Part shown: positions 181-19,012 of the stretch, piece by piece
Numbering within the stretch: the first letter of the stretch is position 1
Layout: each line of letters opens with the position of its first letter
DNA from: Lachnospiraceae bacterium
GTDB lineage: Bacteria; Bacillota; Clostridia; Lachnospirales; Lachnospiraceae
Assembly: GCA_017420605.1 (NCBI GenBank)
Contig: JAFOIS010000075.1
Span: 1-20,687, forward strand
Direction of reading: 5' to 3'
DNA length: 20,687 nucleotides
Translations under genes and position numbers: made by a program
The notes under the pieces: generated by a model
The model's input: the letters and a program-made list of their open reading frames with translations, nothing else
What the model was told of the DNA's origin: nothing
Databases searched by the model: none

Positions 181-1110
181 TCAGTGTCTCGGTACGTAAA
201 CGACTTTCCGATCGGCCTTTTCGCCCTGAATGGCGAGATTCGGAAGGCTGTCCACAAATTTGTATAGCTGGCTGTAGCCATACATTTTTACGTCGAAATC
301 CGGGAACTTCTTCCGGATCTCCTGACCGAGCGTCGAGAGCGCCATCGCTTTTCCGCCGTTCTTCCGGACGATCGATTCGATCTCCTGGCCGATATCCGTA
401 CTCTCCTCCTTGAACGAGATCACGGTATGATGGCCGGTCGTTTCGACTTTGAGAGAGCTTACGTCTGACAGGAATTTCGACAGCTGGCTGTATCCGAAGT
501 TCCGCACGTCAAAGTCCGGATAAATGTTGCGGAGTTTGCTGCCGATCTCGGAAAGATCCGTGGTCATCTTCCCGTTGTTCTCATTTTTCGTAAGGATATC
601 GATGATGGTCGATACGACGGCGTCACGGTCGATGGAAACACGTTCCGCTTTGCGCCGTTTCGGTTTTTCATCTTCGTCCTCCAGAAGATTCTCCAGTTCC
701 GTGAAGACCGTGCAGGCCGCGCGGAACGAATCCGGCGTCTTTTTTTCGCCCATGCCGATCAAGCTCTTGCCGGATTCCCTCAGGCGGCTGGCAAGCCTCG
801 TAAAATCACTGTCGCTCGATACGATGCAGAAGCCGTCGGTGTTGTCCGTATACAGAAGATCCATCGCGTCGATGATGAGCGCGGAATCTGTCGCATTCTT
901 GCCGGAAGTATTGGCGAACTGCTGGATCGGGATGATCGATTTCGCGAGAAGTTTTTTGGCCCAGCCCGCGTTCGCCGCGCTTGTGAAGTCTCCGTAAATG
1001 CGCCGGTACGTCACGATACCGTACTGGGCAAGTTCGTTCAGGATCCCGTCGATATACTTGTGTGATACGTTATCGGAATCGATGAGAAGTGCTATTTTTT
1101 TATCTTCCAT
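181..1110 (-). CDS. NYN-domain protein with two OST-HTH/LOTUS domains
   Basis: A 309-residue protein. Residues about 5-140 form a NYN (PIN-like) nuclease-type domain: LIDSDN near residues 9-14, the acidic NATDSALIIDAMD at 72-84, and the SSDSDF motif at 98-103 followed by RLASRLRESGKSLIGMGE. These acidic residues are those expected to bind metal in NYN/PIN enzymes acting on RNA. A charged linker (about 143-160) leads to two tandem OST-HTH/LOTUS domains (about 164-232 and 239-306). Each carries the same core, YPDFDVRNFGYSQLSKF and FPDFDVKMYGYSQLYKF. LOTUS domains are known as RNA-binding modules, so an RNA-directed nuclease is the likely role; the target is unknown. No signal peptide or membrane segment is visible, so it should be cytoplasmic. 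The start is ATG with a modest upstream GCAGG. It sits 39 bases after the PrsW-like gene in the polC operon. Confidence 0.88.
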   Translation of the reverse strand: MEDKKIALLIDSDNVSHKYIDGILNELAQYGIVTYRRIYGDFTSAANAGWAKKLLAKSIIPIQQFANTSGKNATDSALIIDAMDLLYTDNTDGFCIVSSDSDFTRLASRLRESGKSLIGMGEKKTPDSFRAACTVFTELENLLEDEDEKPKRRKAERVSIDRDAVVSTIIDILTKNENNGKMTTDLSEIGSKLRNIYPDFDVRNFGYSQLSKFLSDVSSLKVETTGHHTVISFKEESTDIGQEIESIVRKNGGKAMALSTLGQEIRKKFPDFDVKMYGYSQLYKFVDSLPNLAIQGEKADRKVVYVPRH

Positions 1111-1891: not shown

Positions 1892-4800
1892 TCACCGGTC
1901 AAAGATAGACATCTGGTTCGATTCCGGGATCTGCCCGAGGATCCCAAGGTCTTCCATCAGATCCGCGATCGTTTTTGATACGTGCGAACGGTTGCGGAAA
2001 TCGTCTTTGCTCAGGAAACTGCCTTCTTTTGCGGCATTATAAAGACCCACGGCCGCCGTTTCTCCCAGGCCGTCGATCGCCGTAAATGCCGGCAGGATCT
2101 TTCCATCCACGATTTTGAAATGCTTTGCCGATGATTCATAGAGATCGATCGGCAGGAAGCTTATCCCGCGCGCATACATTTCCCGCGCGATATACATGTC
2201 GCGCAGCAGATCATCCTCCGTCGCGGTGCGCATATTCTTGCTTTTTTCCTCAAGTTCCCGGATATGGGCGCCGAGCCTTTCGGGGCCAAGGCACATCTTC
2301 TCGTAGGAAAAGCCTTTCGAACGGATCGAAAAATAGGCTGCGTAATACGCCGCGGGATAATAGACCTTATAATAGGCGATCCGGAGCGCGTTCATGACAT
2401 AGGCGGCCGCATGCGCCTTCGGGAACATATACTTGATCTGCTTGCAAGACCAGATGTACCAGTCCGGCACGCTGCACGCGCGCATCTCCTCTTCCATCTG
2501 CGGCGTGAGCCCCTTTCCCTTCCGGACGGATTCCATGATCTTAAAAGAGTGCTCGGGTTCGACACCGCGCCCGATCAGATAAAGCATAATGTCATCACGG
2601 GTGCAGATCGCTGTCGAAAGTGTCGCGTCCCCGTCCCGGATCAGCTTCTGGGCATTGTCGAGCCAGACGTTGGTGCCGTGCGAAAGACCCGAGATCCGTA
2701 TCAGTTCCGCAACGGTCGAAGGCTTCGTATCGAGCAGCATGCCGATAACGAAATTCGTCCCGAACTCGGGGATCCCCAGTACACCGAGCTGTACACCGCC
2801 GATGTCCTCCGGTGAGATCCCGAGCGCCTCCGTGGAACTGAACAGGGAAATGACTTTCGGATCGTTGAGCGGGACCGTTCGCGGATCGACGCCGGTCAGA
2901 TCCTGCAGCATGCGGATCATGGACGGATCATCGTGACCGAGAATATCCAGCTTTAAAAGGTTCTTATCGATCGAATGATAATCAAAATGTGTCGTGATGA
3001 CGCTGCCCGGCTTATTCGCGGGATACTGCACCGGCGTGAAGGTGTTGATATCCATTCCGCGCGGCACGACGATAACGCCTCCCGGGTGCTGACCGGTCGT
3101 TGCCTTTACACCCTCGCACCCGTGCGAAAGCCTCATGATCTCGCAGTTCCTTCTGACTTCTCCACGCTTTTCGAAGTACCCTTTGACGTATCCGATCGCA
3201 GTCCGGTCGGCTACCGTACCGATCGTACCGGCTTTGAAGGTCTGTCCCTTTCCGAAGATCTCTTCGGTATAGGCCTGCGCAACGTTCTGCTCCTCTCCGG
3301 AAAAATTGAGATCGATATCCGGCTCTTTATCGCCTTTGAACCCGAGAAACGTCTCAAACGGGATATCGAAGCCGTCTTTGCGGAGCGGTTTCCCGCAGAC
3401 AGGACACAGCCGGTCCGGCATATCGCACCCCGCCTCGCCCGTGTATTTCTTTACTTCTTCGGAATCAAAATCGACATAATGGCAGGACGTGCAGTAATAG
3501 TGCGGCGGCAGCGGATTCACCTCGGTGATATCCGACATCGTCGCGGCAAACGAAGATCCGACAGAGCCCCGCGATCCGACGATATATCCGTCTTCCTCCG
3601 ACTTCGCGACCAGCTTTTTCGCGATGATATACATGACGGAATAACCGTTGCCGATAATGGAATCCAGTTCCCGTGTAAGACGCTGCTCCACGATCGGCGG
3701 CAGCGGATCCCCGTACATCGCGTGTGCTTTCGTAAGGCACGATTCCTTCAGGATCTCCGAAGAATTCGGGATCGACGGCGGGCATTTTTCCGGATAGATC
3801 GGCGAAACGTTCCCGCACATGCCGGCGATCATGGCAGGAGCTTCGATCACGACTTCGCGGGCTTTTTCTTCGCCCAGATACGAAAACTCGGACAGCATTT
3901 CGTCTGTCGTGCGGAAATACAGCGGGGCGGTCTGCTCTTCGTCCATGCCGTGGCTGGAAAGAATAATGCGCCGGTAGATCTCGTCTTCCGGGTCGAGGAA
4001 ATGCACGTCGCCGGTCGCAACGACGGGTTTTCCGAATTCTTCTCCGTAAGAGACGATACGCCGGTTGATGTCGCGGATCTCTTCCGCTGTCGTAATGCCG
4101 TATCTTGCGTCGCCCAGAAGATAGGCGTTGTTGGATTGCGGCATGATCTCCAGATAATCATAAAACGAGATCAGACGCGCAAGTTCCGCATCCGGCGCAT
4201 TGCGCAGGATCGCCTGGTAGACTTCTCCCGCGGAACAGGCGGAACCGATGAGCAGTCCTTCCCTCTTTTTCGCAAGAAGACTCTTCGGGATGCGCGGACG
4301 GTTGCGGAAATACCGGAGGTGCGATTCGGACACCAGACTGTAGAGGTTCCGGCGTCCTTCTTCGCTCCGCGTAAGGATACATACATGGAAATACGGGGAC
4401 GACAGAATATGCTCATACGAGGAGCTTCCTTCCTCCGCCAGCTGCCGGAAAGAATCGATCTCTTTATCGCGCAGGTCATGCACCAGTACGCCGTACGCAT
4501 CCTTCATGGCGTCCGCGCGGTGTCCTGCACGGATATTTCCTTCGCATTTGACGTGCAGCGTCCGCGCGTAGCGTTCGAATTTCGCACGCGGCGGAATATC
4601 GTAAAAAAGACGAAGCGCGAGCATCATATCGAGACGGAGCGCAGGAAACGAAACGCCGGCCTCCTCCGCGGATCTTTCAAGGAAACCCATCTCCGCGCCG
4701 ATATCGAAAGCCGCAAGGCAGGCGCCTTCACAGAAAGCGGCAAAGCTTTTTACCGCATCCGTAACAGACGGCATGCCGGAAAGATCACGGTCCGAAAGAC

Positions 4801-6268
4801 CGGAGATCTGCTCAAACGCAAACGCGAGCGGAACGCCCGGATCTGCGAGCGTATGAAAACTGCGCACGGCGCCGCCGGGCTCGATGCGGTGCGCCGCGAT
4901 CTCGACGATATGATGCTTATACGGGCTGTGGCCTGTGGTAAGCAGAGAAAACACAACGACCGGGATCTCTCCGATTTTCTCTTCAGAAGCGCCTTCCACG
5001 ACGCGCCGGCTGTCGTCGACGAGATAACCTTCCATACCGTAGATGATCTTGAAATCAGCGTCTGCCGGAATACCGCCCTTGCCGCCGATCGTATGCAGCG
5101 CGTCCGGAAACGCCTGGACGATCCCGTGATCCGTCACCGCCATGGCTTTATGCCCCCAGCGGTAAGCCTGCACGAGAAGATCCTTAACGTCCGTTACGGC
5201 GTCCATTTCGCTCATTTTTGTATGGCAGTGCAGTTCGATGCGTTTATCGGGCGAACGGTCTTCCCTGATCGTCCGGATCGGATCCGCTTCACGGATCCCC
5301 GTCACACTGCGGATCATGAACTCGCGGTCGAATTCGTCATAGGCAGCTATGCCGTGCACGACCAGCGTTTTGCCGATGCGCAGCGTTTTCCTGAAAAGAT
5401 CCGCTTCTTCCTTTTCCGCAAACAGTTTCATCCGGATACTGTCGGTATAATCGGTAATGGAGAATGTAAAAATGACTTTGCCGGTTTTCGTCTCCCGTTC
5501 GTCGACCGCGAAAATATCGCCGCGTACGGTCACCTCGCCGGGTTCGGATGTGATCATATCCATCCGGACCGGTTCTCCCTCGAAACTTTTCCCGTAGATC
5601 ATATCGGGATCCGGGCGGACAAAACCTTTCCGGGAAGACGTTCTTGCATTGTGGGAAGGAAGCCGTACCTTCTTCCCTTCACTTTCCGCTTTTTCTTTGC
5701 GCGCGCGCCGGATCCGCATCAGTTCTTCTACGTGCGCGTCCACGGAACGGTCGTCTCCGGAGACCGTAAGGCTTTCGTCGGCAACGGACGTCATCGTGAC
5801 ACTGAAGCCCGCGCGTTCACGGAAAACACGTTCCAGATAGTCTGTCAGCCTTTCACTCATTTCCTCGGCGATCAGGCCGGCCGGCAGATGCCAGACTATC
5901 TCCCCGTCCGAAAAATCCGGCGAAGCGTCCGAAAGAAGTTCCGCCGTCAGCGGACTTCTCTCCGAGAGTTCATCGATGAGGCTTTTCTTATACTGTTCGT
6001 AGAACAGCTCCGGCGTATACCGCTCGGACAGCAGGAAACGTACGGACAGCTTCGCGTTCATCGAAAGACCGCTGAGTATCTGTTCCGTAAGCGCGTTTTC
6101 GAGTTCCCGGATCTCTCCGTAGGTTAGGAGATGCCGGCTTGCGGCATGCACGAAAAGGATATGCTTCGCGGAGCTGCAGAGCACGCGTTCGACCGTAATG
6201 GCAGAAAGCACCGCGGTAAGATCGTCTCTTACCGAAAGATCCGGGAAAACCTCTGTAAATGCTTTCAT
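1892..6268 (-). CDS. polC: DNA polymerase III PolC-type alpha subunit
   Basis: The replicative polymerase of low-GC Gram-positive bacteria, 1458 residues, close to the usual ~1440. Order of domains: N-terminal domain, OB fold (about 245-325), PHP domain beginning IELHCHT (344-350) with AVTDH (377-381), an inserted exonuclease-type domain (about 434-600), the rest of PHP (NLYSLVSESH, ATGDVHF), then the palm with SRGSVGSSFAA, a zinc motif with cysteines 926, 929, 948, 955 and 958, and PDIDLNFSGE (D984, D986). The tail contains QMSIF (1452-1456), which fits the sliding-clamp-binding motif found at the end of PolC. Oddity: in the exonuclease domain the catalytic acids are gone. VVFDxETTG reads VVFSLLTTG (S441, L443), the motif II aspartate is E526, and motif III is altered. 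The ATG at 6266-6268 has GGGAG ten bases upstream. It follows ispG by 54 bases. Confidence 0.97.
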   Translation of the reverse strand: MKAFTEVFPDLSVRDDLTAVLSAITVERVLCSSAKHILFVHAASRHLLTYGEIRELENALTEQILSGLSMNAKLSVRFLLSERYTPELFYEQYKKSLIDELSERSPLTAELLSDASPDFSDGEIVWHLPAGLIAEEMSERLTDYLERVFRERAGFSVTMTSVADESLTVSGDDRSVDAHVEELMRIRRARKEKAESEGKKVRLPSHNARTSSRKGFVRPDPDMIYGKSFEGEPVRMDMITSEPGEVTVRGDIFAVDERETKTGKVIFTFSITDYTDSIRMKLFAEKEEADLFRKTLRIGKTLVVHGIAAYDEFDREFMIRSVTGIREADPIRTIREDRSPDKRIELHCHTKMSEMDAVTDVKDLLVQAYRWGHKAMAVTDHGIVQAFPDALHTIGGKGGIPADADFKIIYGMEGYLVDDSRRVVEGASEEKIGEIPVVVFSLLTTGHSPYKHHIVEIAAHRIEPGGAVRSFHTLADPGVPLAFAFEQISGLSDRDLSGMPSVTDAVKSFAAFCEGACLAAFDIGAEMGFLERSAEEAGVSFPALRLDMMLALRLFYDIPPRAKFERYARTLHVKCEGNIRAGHRADAMKDAYGVLVHDLRDKEIDSFRQLAEEGSSSYEHILSSPYFHVCILTRSEEGRRNLYSLVSESHLRYFRNRPRIPKSLLAKKREGLLIGSACSAGEVYQAILRNAPDAELARLISFYDYLEIMPQSNNAYLLGDARYGITTAEEIRDINRRIVSYGEEFGKPVVATGDVHFLDPEDEIYRRIILSSHGMDEEQTAPLYFRTTDEMLSEFSYLGEEKAREVVIEAPAMIAGMCGNVSPIYPEKCPPSIPNSSEILKESCLTKAHAMYGDPLPPIVEQRLTRELDSIIGNGYSVMYIIAKKLVAKSEEDGYIVGSRGSVGSSFAATMSDITEVNPLPPHYYCTSCHYVDFDSEEVKKYTGEAGCDMPDRLCPVCGKPLRKDGFDIPFETFLGFKGDKEPDIDLNFSGEEQNVAQAYTEEIFGKGQTFKAGTIGTVADRTAIGYVKGYFEKRGEVRRNCEIMRLSHGCEGVKATTGQHPGGVIVVPRGMDINTFTPVQYPANKPGSVITTHFDYHSIDKNLLKLDILGHDDPSMIRMLQDLTGVDPRTVPLNDPKVISLFSSTEALGISPEDIGGVQLGVLGIPEFGTNFVIGMLLDTKPSTVAELIRISGLSHGTNVWLDNAQKLIRDGDATLSTAICTRDDIMLYLIGRGVEPEHSFKIMESVRKGKGLTPQMEEEMRACSVPDWYIWSCKQIKYMFPKAHAAAYVMNALRIAYYKVYYPAAYYAAYFSIRSKGFSYEKMCLGPERLGAHIRELEEKSKNMRTATEDDLLRDMYIAREMYARGISFLPIDLYESSAKHFKIVDGKILPAFTAIDGLGETAAVGLYNAAKEGSFLSKDDFRNRSHVSKTIADLMEDLGILGQIPESNQMSIFDR
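4469..4969 (-). other. Degenerate DEDDh exonuclease domain inside PolC
   Basis: Codons for residues about 434-600 of PolC. The fold-level pattern of the proofreading domain is easy to follow (VVVFSLLTTG, HHIVEIAAHRI, ISGLSDRDLSGMPSV, LAAFDIGAEMGFL, LDMMLALRLF, AGHRADAMKDAYGVL). The motif I acids (D and E of DxETTG) are Ser441 and Leu443. In motif II the sequence usually read as AHNASFDMGFL is AFDIGAEMGFL, so Asp becomes Glu526. In motif III the His583 is kept, but the following Asp is at +3 and +7 instead of +5. I checked the two motif I codons directly on the DNA (4946-4948 and 4940-4942). The reading frame is unbroken. Confidence 0.85.
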
Positions 6269-11454: not shown

Positions 11455-12660
11455 ATGGAAAAACTTCTGTATTTCGAATGTGCTGAAGGCATCAGCGGCG
11501 ATATGGCCGTATCTTCGCTGCTCCATCTCGGTGCCGACTTCACCGGCCTGATGAAAACACTGGATTCCCTTAAACTTGCCGGTTACCGTGCGGAACTCGA
11601 AAAATTCGGAAACCGCGGGATCTCCACGTATCGTTTCAACGTCCTGCTGGATGATGAACGGCATCCGGACGATGCGGGCGGCGCCCGTGATCTTGCCGAC
11701 GTATTTGCGGTCCTGTCCCGTCTTTCCGATCCGCGTGTGCGCACGCTTTCGGAAGATATTTTCCGTATCGTTGCGGAAGCAGAGGCACAGGTACACGGAA
11801 AGCATATTCACGACGTTCATTTTCATGAAGTGGGCGCCGTCGATTCTATCGTCGATATCGTCTCTTTCGCGTTCTGCTACACGGATCTCGGCTTTACGGA
11901 TACCGTCCTTTCGTCTGTCACGGAAGGAACAGGGACTGTTCGCTGCGCGCACGGCGTGCTGCCGGTACCGGTACCGGCTGTCTGTGCGATCACCGAACGC
12001 TATAGTCTGCCGCTCCGCGTATCATCGCTTGCCGGGGAACGTATTACGCCGACCGGCGCCGCGATCCTCGCCGCCGTATGGCACGGTGCGGCACTTCCCG
12101 AAACCTATACGGTATGCGGCTGCGGCTACGGTTCCGGGCACCGCTGCGCACCGGACCCTTCGATGCTCCGCGCAATGGAGATCAGACCGCTTTACACAGA
12201 GAACGGCAGTCATCCGATGAACGATGCCGGTGAAGACACGATCATCAAGCTTGAATGCAATGTAGATGACTGCAGCGGCGAAGCGCTCGGTTATGTTATG
12301 GAGAAACTCCTCTCAGGCGGTGCGCGTGACGTCTTTTTCACTCCAGTAACCATGAAGAAGAACCGTCCCGGTACAATGATCTCCGTTTTGTGCACGCCGG
12401 ATCTTCGTCCCGCGATGGAACGGATCCTCTTTACCCATACGACGACGATCGGAATCCGCCATGAAACGATGTTCCGTACGGTTCTTCCCCGCCGCATCGA
12501 AACGGCTGATACGCCTTACGGACCTGTCCGTGCAAAAATCGTTACATACGGCTCAGAAGAATATGCCTATCCCGAATATGAATCCGTGCATGCGATAGCG
12601 GAAAAAAACGGCCTCCCGTACCGGAAGGCCTATGATCTGATCCGAACTTATTTCAGCTGA
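11455..12660 (+). CDS. larC: LarC, nickel insertion protein of nickel-pincer cofactor synthesis
   Basis: LarC inserts nickel into the pyridinium bis-thiocarboxylate precursor in a CTP-dependent reaction, completing the NPN cofactor used by lactate racemase LarA and related enzymes. The protein is 401 residues and carries both halves of the family in one frame: the N-terminal LYFECAEGISGDM (5-17), the histidine-rich HIHDVHFHEVGAVDSIVDIV, GERITPTGAAILAA, and the C-terminal IIKLECNVDDCSGEALGYVMEKL, GARDVFFTPVTMKKNRPG and TTIGIRH segments. In Lactiplantibacillus the gene is split into larC1 and larC2 and read by ribosomal frameshift; no frameshift is needed here. The start ATG fits the family N-terminus but has no clear ribosome site upstream (only GGT). 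larB follows after 13 bases. Neither larE nor larA is in the window. Confidence 0.94.
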   Translation: MEKLLYFECAEGISGDMAVSSLLHLGADFTGLMKTLDSLKLAGYRAELEKFGNRGISTYRFNVLLDDERHPDDAGGARDLADVFAVLSRLSDPRVRTLSEDIFRIVAEAEAQVHGKHIHDVHFHEVGAVDSIVDIVSFAFCYTDLGFTDTVLSSVTEGTGTVRCAHGVLPVPVPAVCAITERYSLPLRVSSLAGERITPTGAAILAAVWHGAALPETYTVCGCGYGSGHRCAPDPSMLRAMEIRPLYTENGSHPMNDAGEDTIIKLECNVDDCSGEALGYVMEKLLSGGARDVFFTPVTMKKNRPGTMISVLCTPDLRPAMERILFTHTTTIGIRHETMFRTVLPRRIETADTPYGPVRAKIVTYGSEEYAYPEYESVHAIAEKNGLPYRKAYDLIRTYFS

Positions 12661-12673
12661 TAAGGAAACCGCC

Positions 12674-13420
12674 ATGCAGAAAGATACGATCCGCACACTT
12701 CTTGAAAACGTCCGTGAAGGAACACTTTCGGTAGAAGAAGCGCTTCTGCGCTTCCGCGAAGCACCGTTCACGGATCTCGGCTACGCCAAAGTCGATCTGC
12801 ATCGCGAAATGCGGCAGGGAATGGCGGAGGTGATCTACGGTGCGGGAAAAATGCCGGCGCAGATCGAAGGGATCGTGAACGCCATGCTTTCGGCAGGCCA
12901 GAAGCGTATTCTCATCACGCGTCTTTCCGAAGATGCTGTCTCCGCCCTTCATGGCATTTCCGGCCTTACGTATTTCAAAGACGCCCGCCTTGCCCTCATC
13001 GGCGGAATTCCCGAACCAGACGGGAAAGGCACGGTCGTAGTCGCCTGTGCGGGGACGAGCGATCTGCCGGTCGCGGAAGAAGCCGCTGTCACCGCAGAGA
13101 TCTACGGCAACAAAGTCGTCCGTCTTTATGACGTTGGCGTATCCGGTCTTCACAGGACGCTCTCGCATCTTGACGAGATCATGGGCGCTAATGTGATCAT
13201 TTCGATAGCCGGCATGGAAGGCGCATTGACAAGCGTCCTGGGAGGTCTTGCCGACTGTCCTGTCATCGGTGTTCCGACCTCTGTCGGATACGGCGCGTCC
13301 TTCCATGGCGTTTCCGCCCTGCTTGCGATGCTGAATTCCTGTGCTTCCGGTGTTTCCGTCGTCAACATCGACAACGGTTTCGGCGCCGGCTATCTCGCCT
13401 CCATGATCAACCACCGTTAA
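12674..13420 (+). CDS. larB: LarB, carboxylase/hydrolase of nickel-pincer cofactor synthesis
   Basis: LarB carboxylates the pyridinium ring of nicotinic acid adenine dinucleotide and cleaves its phosphoanhydride, the first step towards the NPN cofactor. It is related to PurE-type AIR carboxylases. The protein is 248 residues with family motifs VVVACAGTSDLPVAEEAAVTAE, DVGVSGLHR, IAGMEGALTSVLGGL, PVIGVPTSVGYGASFHG and VSVVNIDNGFGAGYLA. The ATG at 12674 has AAGGAA eight bases upstream and follows larC by 13 bases, so the two are co-transcribed. The sulfur-inserting partner LarE and a LarA-type racemase must be encoded elsewhere if the pathway is complete. It ends 15 bases from the convergent beta-propeller gene, with no terminator visible between them. 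Confidence 0.95.
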   Translation: MQKDTIRTLLENVREGTLSVEEALLRFREAPFTDLGYAKVDLHREMRQGMAEVIYGAGKMPAQIEGIVNAMLSAGQKRILITRLSEDAVSALHGISGLTYFKDARLALIGGIPEPDGKGTVVVACAGTSDLPVAEEAAVTAEIYGNKVVRLYDVGVSGLHRTLSHLDEIMGANVIISIAGMEGALTSVLGGLADCPVIGVPTSVGYGASFHGVSALLAMLNSCASGVSVVNIDNGFGAGYLASMINHR

Positions 13421-18415: not shown

Positions 18416-19012
18416 TTACTCTTCGGTCTTCTCTTCGGCAGGCGCTTCTTCCGCGGGCGCTTCTTCCGCAGGCGCTTCTTCAGCAGGTGCTTCTTCGGCA
18501 GGAGCTTCTTCAGCCGGAGCCTCTTCCTTTTCTTCACCGGAGATGACCGTGCCGATCGTCTTTGCGGCGTCCTTAAGTTCCTTCTTGGCAGCTTCCGCGA
18601 GCTTCGCGATTTCCGGCGCGATCTCTTCGTAATTTGCCTTGATCTCTTCTTTCACGCGTTCGGCGGCTTTTTTGGCCGTCTGCGCCGCTTTGGAATTGGC
18701 GGCGGTCTCCGCGGCCTGTTTTTCCTTTTCGACTGCTTCTTCCGTCTTCTCATCAACTTCGTCGACGGTCAGTTTGATCTTTTCACGTGTCTCTTCCGGA
18801 ACCTTCGCGGCTGCTTCGGCAAAGATATCATCCTTCTTGATCTTTGCCTTTTCGCGGAATTCCTTCGTCAGTTCCTTACCCTGCTCAACGGTCAGTTCAC
18901 CGCGCTTTACAAGTTCGTCAATGATCTCTTTCGACTTTTCGGCAGTCACAGCTACGGCGCCTACGCCTGCAAGCAGAAGCTTCTTGATCGCATTCGTGAA
19001 TTTCATTTTCAT
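18416..19012 (-). CDS. Phasin-like coiled-coil protein with a repetitive EEAPA tail
   Basis: A 198-residue, highly charged protein rich in Ala, Glu and Lys. The first 50 residues contain a short hydrophobic stretch (LLLAGVGAVAVT, about 12-23), then a segment with IIDELVKRGELTVEQGKEL. This resembles the N-terminus of small bacterial proteins annotated as phasin-like, so I use that name for the pattern only. Residues about 45-155 should form long amphipathic helices. The tail is six copies of EEAPA ending in EEKTEE. There is no clear polyhydroxyalkanoate gene in the window, so granule binding is not supported. Two start codons are close together: ATG at 19012, and ATG at 19006, which is better spaced from AAAGGA and may be the true start. 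It ends at the terminator shared with tRNA-Val. Confidence 0.8.
   Translation of the reverse strand: MKMKFTNAIKKLLLAGVGAVAVTAEKSKEIIDELVKRGELTVEQGKELTKEFREKAKIKKDDIFAEAAAKVPEETREKIKLTVDEVDEKTEEAVEKEKQAAETAANSKAAQTAKKAAERVKEEIKANYEEIAPEIAKLAEAAKKELKDAAKTIGTVISGEEKEEAPAEEAPAEEAPAEEAPAEEAPAEEAPAEEKTEE
18435..18524 (-). repeat. Six tandem 15-base units coding for EEAPA
   Basis: Six head-to-tail units of 15 bases (18435, 18450, 18465, 18480, 18495, 18510), all in frame. Their differences, such as GGCAGG, GCGGG and GCCGG variants, are mostly or wholly silent, so the encoded unit is identical each time. This suggests selection on the peptide, and the copy number may vary between strains. Confidence 0.9.

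Follow-up and report, generated by a model that had tools for sequence, protein, structure and literature searches.

The principal finding of this analysis is that the PolC polymerase encoded in the window, the whole stretch of 20,687 nucleotides from a Lachnospiraceae bacterium (contig JAFOIS010000075.1), retains a full-length DEDDh-type exonuclease insert in which the catalytic residues have been replaced. To judge from the sequences of its relatives, the common ancestor of the genus had already lost this DEDDh centre, and the fold of the insert and the rest of the polymerase were kept. We consider it probable that the insert is a fold-retaining pseudo-exonuclease, that proofreading is carried out by the PHP site together with mismatch repair, and that the dead module possibly shapes the path of the DNA. 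The features concerned are:

1892..6268, minus strand: polC, PolC-type DNA polymerase III alpha, 1458 amino acids (open reading frame, Pfam domains, 1114.6 bits to the solved PolC 9qpc)
5012..5236, minus strand: PHP domain, part before the insert, ligands H347, H349, D356, H381 and E413 (alignment)
4418..5011, minus strand: DEDDh-type exonuclease insert, 198 amino acids taken, with its catalytic site almost certainly dead and its fold apparently retained
4940..4948, minus strand: motif I, VVFSLLTTG, S441-L442-L443 for D-x-E (alignments including profile-profile)
4691..4693, minus strand: motif II, AFDIGAEMGFL, E526 for D (D526E; alignments including profile-profile)
4517..4534, minus strand: motif III, NIRAGHRADAMKD, I579 and R584 for H and D (alignments including profile-profile)
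4001..4387, minus strand: PHP domain, part after the insert, ligands H628, C678, D754 and H756 (alignment)
2945..3319, minus strand: palm aspartates D984, D986 and D1108, all kept (alignment)

The polC reading frame is complete and uninterrupted in the list of open reading frames, and its product matches the PolC domain set in Pfam, with the OB and N-terminal II domains slightly below their cut-offs. By this domain set and its palm aspartates the protein is a PolC-type DNA polymerase III alpha, one of the two C-family polymerases matched in its own genome, and it has the PolC arrangement of an exonuclease module inserted in the PHP domain, here between E413 and H628. An earlier note on this DNA had described a full-length insert at 4469-4969, which are PolC residues 434-600, with the residues of motifs I, II and III lost. 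Three kinds of alignment bear this out and agree on the same columns, in which D, E, D, H and D of B. subtilis PolC and intact relatives are replaced in the window PolC by S441, L443, E526, I579 and R584: MAFFT with B. subtilis PolC and relatives, a profile-profile comparison of 25 dead with 15 intact domains, and HMMER against the solved PolC chains 9qpc and 2p1j, which covers motifs I and II only. None of the five positions varies among the 72 intact PolCs used for comparison, which speaks for more than chance. The codons changed are 4946-4948 (D441S) and 4940-4942 (E443L) in motif I, and 4532-4534 (H579I) and 4517-4519 (D584R) in motif III. PDB chain 9qpc_A has A-x-A at motif I, presumably as an engineered exonuclease-minus form. 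Another register for motif III was tried and rejected, the sole nearby histidine being H583, with Met at +5 and Asp at +3 and +7. Substitute acids at the metal sites, which the earlier note had named as what would speak against its reading, did not show up in a search with sequence and profile alignments. The Pfam exonuclease profile PF00929 is not listed for the whole window PolC scanned at E up to 1, and the exonuclease domain alone matches it (2.9e-8, 34.9 bits) starting at domain residue 25, right after motif I. With S, L, E, I and R in place of the five catalytic residues, the domain falls outside the active DEDDh exonucleases, and the loss of DEDDh activity in the window PolC is close to certain. 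The DnaQ fold of this class is found in a confident predicted model, in whose input alignment 15 of 42 rows were intact relatives, which agrees with the suggestion that the domain is kept for structure. Nor does the protein belong to the PolCs without exonuclease insert, as 198 residues are present here against 11-60 in deleted relatives.

The loss is not that of one odd protein. Of 61 genomes searched, 36 are others of the genus, and the PolC locus could be read in 29 of the 37 genus genomes (the window's own and 28 more), the remaining eight having PolC in pieces that were left unread. The exonuclease is dead in all 29. The motif I Asp position is occupied by S in 12, Q in 11, A in three, D in two and T in one, the motif I Glu position by V in 26, L in two and T in one, and the motif II Asp position by E in 18, G in four, V in two, Q in two, and A, M and D in one each. 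At motif III the His is kept in two sequences and the Asp position holds R in 27 and Q in two. The dead domains also have new residues in common across the genus, such as the Arg at the motif III Asp. It could be argued that other residues keep the DEDDh site active, or that the changes are sequence errors, and the motif I Asp kept in two sequences, the motif II Asp kept in one and the Glu at motif II in 18 might be taken to favour this. However, of the four original acids at most one survives in any genus sequence, all 29 lack the motif I Glu and the motif III Asp, the profile alignment is unambiguous and the separate genomes are concordant, so that we regard a still active site or faulty sequence as extremely improbable. 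The 28 other genomes likewise dispose of a sequencing or assembly error in the window itself. An ion pair of E526 and R584 in place of the metals was also considered and found no support, because the Arg remains where the Glu is replaced. In a tree built on the polymerase core, with the exonuclease columns left out, the 29 proteins and L035 form a single clade (SH-aLRT 99) in which the window protein branches first. Among the best 120 database hits to the window protein, 56 are dead (its own entry included) and 64 intact. A second PolC-like open frame, L139 (G019:C230), has 800 amino acids with an exonuclease domain scoring 4e-27, possibly from a mobile element.

The polC gene itself is not decaying, as the earlier note had held, and the rest of the polymerase is by this evidence under full constraint. 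Across the 72 intact PolCs and B. subtilis 265 core columns do not vary, and of these the window protein keeps 252 and the genus 96.6% on average; of 32 invariant exonuclease columns the window keeps 13 and the genus a mean of 47.6%, the five catalytic columns being retained in 0-7% of the genus. L129, in whose genome PolC contains a stop and whose intact row is misaligned at the PHP domain, was excluded from these counts. Mean pairwise identity within the genus is 0.751 for the core and 0.471 for the exonuclease, against 0.743 and 0.650 among 23 intact relatives. In six same-genus pairs dN/dS is 0.056-0.242 for the dead domain and 0.015-0.105 for the core, and in the five intact pairs with finite values it is 0.012-0.127 for the exonuclease and 0.013-0.052 for the core, with several dS values saturated. 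The lower identity and the dN/dS values of the dead domain therefore indicate that constraint there, though relaxed, persists.

The PHP domain, which the earlier note had described as intact, has its nine canonical ligands, HHDHEHCDH. This pattern occurs in 29 of 29 genus PolCs and in 20 of the 21 other lost rows of the tree (in the remaining one, L233, just four positions can be read). Among the database proteins all 56 dead and all 26 deleted ones have it, many of these rows being near-copies. An intact PHP site in lost PolCs is expected anyway and provides no statistical test, because relatives with an intact exonuclease have it as well (64 of 64 in one database set and 94 of 94 in another). 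No PolC with both the DEDDh and the PHP sites lost was seen among the fully readable rows. In Bacillus-type PolCs, by contrast, all 120 hits have an intact DEDDh site and the PHP pattern HHDHEHCNH, with Asn as ligand eight. The available text of PMC12926913 gives HHDHEH[C/H]DH as the nine-ligand criterion for a PHP proofreading exonuclease, and the window PolC has this pattern. The portion of PMC5636811 at hand reports that the M. tuberculosis PHP exonuclease is inactive when D226 is mutated, D226N being a catalytic mutant, that no PHP exonuclease activity is found in G. kaustophilus PolC, in which one ligand is changed, and that in firmicutes a DEDD insertion replaced PHP proofreading. From the D-x-H motif, D226 would correspond to D754 here; the Asn at ligand eight in Bacillus-type PolCs resembles the mutation that abolishes the mycobacterial PHP exonuclease. 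The statement in the excerpt of PMC3919608 that the nine PHP positions are strongly conserved across the PolC group sits uneasily with the Asn in these 120 proteins, and the part of PMC3656037 available has no bearing on PHP activity. A proofreading-deficient polC allele was used to make conditional hypermutators of B. subtilis (PMC11890065).

We therefore read the earlier note's statement that the organism would need a separate exonuclease or would tolerate more mutation as incomplete: the PHP site of the same enzyme offers a candidate third possibility. Under the pseudo-exonuclease reading, the PHP site of the PolC polypeptide itself would remove mismatched primer ends, and DnaE1 would do so with its own PHP site, MutS/MutL repair acting as a backup behind PHP excision. 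PHP motifs of DnaE1 were found by pattern in 20 of 20 genus loci read, and in the window organism the dnaE gene is truncated where its contig ends. The dead module would persist because it sits in the PHP loop adjoining the active site and could there influence the course of the DNA or the folding of the PHP domain.

Loss of the exonuclease is not confined to this genus. In a family-wide PF00929 screen of 397 genomes, 368 gave a match at or below 1e-20 and 29 gave none; such a screen undercounts PolC losses because a PF00929 match can be a stand-alone protein. Among the 29 match-less genomes two belong to the genus and nine were unlisted; the other 18 were read, together with two low scorers (G564 and G480), to give 20. 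Four of these PolCs are dead with the insert present (G480, G535, G367 and G423), nine have the insert deleted (G491, G469, G564, G381, G508, G526, G553, G372 and G534), one is intact (G605), one is cut with motif I intact (G566), and five genomes are unreadable or without PolC (G500, G492, G542, G596 and G561). The motif I Asp is missing from all four dead domains, of which G480 retains the Glu and the His and G535 two Asp in this alignment. A second sample of 26 genomes of the order, mostly picked for weak PF00929 results, contained six PolCs with the insert deleted (G087, G097, G169, G193, G127 and G166), one dead (L061, in G331), two intact (G332 and G333), two cut with motif III kept (G304 and G195) and one fragment (G217). 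In a quick tree of 75 rows the intact or lost state requires at least six changes, and eight maximal lost clades are counted. A tree that unites all 50 lost rows is rejected (p-AU 2.4e-6), and so are trees that unite the 35 dead rows (p-AU 7.9e-9) or the genus with L061 (p-AU 0.0045), although some placements, including that of L233 with L231, are unsure owing to long branches. Exonuclease loss by substitution or by deletion thus recurs in the order, and a single origin is rejected. It is possible, and we put it forward tentatively, that the PHP site is the sole proofreading nuclease of PolC throughout the genus, with the DEDDh proofreader silenced and retained as a wall of the PHP site that has no catalysis of its own, and that the order has seen this reversal six times or more (eight if losses cannot be undone), each readable case having an intact PHP site. 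The same survey weakens a guide role of the module, the insert being dispensable and trimmed to a short linker in other lineages. Dead, shrunken and deleted forms would be steps by which the exonuclease domain vanishes. Two inserts are intermediate in form, that of L229 (G469) with about 60 residues of Gln/Asn/Thr-rich linker and that of L232 (G367) as a shrunken dead domain of 172 residues.

The other 14 of the 26 order genomes, such as G063 and G108, have DnaE-like matches only, some of the assemblies being rated 95-100% complete, so PolC may be lost altogether in part of the order, although the assemblies are possibly incomplete. Such apparent losability would suit the view that DnaE1 took over bulk synthesis and that PolC, as an auxiliary enzyme, may lose fidelity. 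The core of the genus PolCs, however, is as constrained as that of intact relatives, and we consider this view very unlikely.

The polymerase might have no proofreading nuclease at all, relying on base selectivity and mismatch repair and tolerating a higher mutation rate, with the PHP domain serving as structure only. Mismatch repair is widely present, as MutS_I matches occur in 37 of 37 genus genomes, some as fragments (the organism's own mutS lies at a contig end), and MutL exceeds its cut-off in 20 of 23 genomes searched, the organism's own, G002 and G004 being the exceptions. A structural role of the PHP domain in E. coli Pol III is described in the available part of PMC3666897. On the other hand, all nine PHP ligands are kept throughout, and no mutator sign or faster evolution was seen in PolC-core and IspG distances, a weak and indirect test with one very long outgroup branch. 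Median PolC-core distances to B. subtilis are 1.609 for the genus and 1.570 for intact rows (25 rows, B. subtilis itself at 0 among them), with 1.687 for five other dead rows and 1.707 for deleted rows; IspG distances do not differ between the genus and intact rows in a tree with a very long outgroup branch. Taken together, a PolC without any proofreading nuclease appears unlikely.

Another enzyme might also proofread in trans. The earlier note had suggested searching for a separate DnaQ-like exonuclease. The sole PF00929 match over cut-off in the organism's own genome is a KapD/ERI-1-like DEDDh protein, present in 34 of 37 genus genomes (three partial), and PF00929 searches of the genus genomes yielded no DnaQ-like protein common to the genus, the remaining PF00929 proteins being patchy. 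The KapD-like protein is an unspecific candidate and was rejected as a specific compensator, since 47 of 79 other genera of the family have it too (E below 1e-25) and shorter relatives are present in families whose PolC retains its exonuclease; the KapD-like protein has no match in G020, a genome 97% complete. A Pol I-type exonuclease was likewise rejected, the own genome having no PF01612 match; such matches occur in six of 28 genus genomes searched, two of them below cut-off, and three (G004, G018 and G027) coincide with PF00929 proteins. No second PolC or DnaQ protein was found in the own genome, where absence is no proof in an assembly 93.9% complete in 332 contigs. Proofreading in trans, for instance by the KapD-like protein, is thus rather improbable. 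The KapD/ERI-1-like exonuclease at L001:1414-2343 (G000:C328) has a cysteine-rich C-terminal part; full-length relatives are common in the family, and in other families of the order mainly the exonuclease part matches.

A PolC that is exonuclease-less by deletion is already known. In the consulted portion of PMC3919608 the insert is lacking in 6% of PolCs, all but one from Clostridia and Negativicutes, and deleted-insert PolCs were also found here in neighbouring lineages. Those variants resemble the window PolC in that they are clostridial, coexist with DnaE1, have no DEDDh proofreader and keep the PHP site intact, but their insert is absent, whereas here it is full length, folded according to the model, and dead. 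The retained dead domain would therefore be a new form; the open-licence literature searched yielded no description of a PolC exonuclease that is dead yet kept across a genus. The M. tuberculosis DnaE1 described in PMC5636811, as far as its available text goes, has the same nine-ligand pattern and is proposed to proofread with it, the activity being shown by experiment there and inferred here; the loop by the active site of DnaE1 contains no exonuclease domain. Retained dead DnaQ-like domains with inactive 3'-5' exonuclease are also known from Pol I-type polymerases including PolA2/APEX (PMC12926913, in the part available), which are A-family enzymes, unlike the replicative C-family PolC of the window. 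The same partial text states that in the C-family it is PHP that is inactivated and not the DnaQ proofreader. The genus appears to show the reverse of this rule, recurring elsewhere in the order, with the other polymerase domains fully constrained, and such natural DEDDh-minus PolCs would make PHP proofreading in PolC directly testable.

Elsewhere in the window, an NYN domain protein with two OST-HTH/LOTUS domains is encoded near polC (181-1110, minus strand), and the protein encoded at 18416-19012 (minus strand), which matches nothing in Pfam, is acidic and rich in lysine and has an APAEE repeat at its C terminus. A gene pair at 11455-13420 (plus strand) matches a nickel insertion protein (LarC-like) and an AIR carboxylase-like domain, the latter gene being one that we take to be LarB-like.
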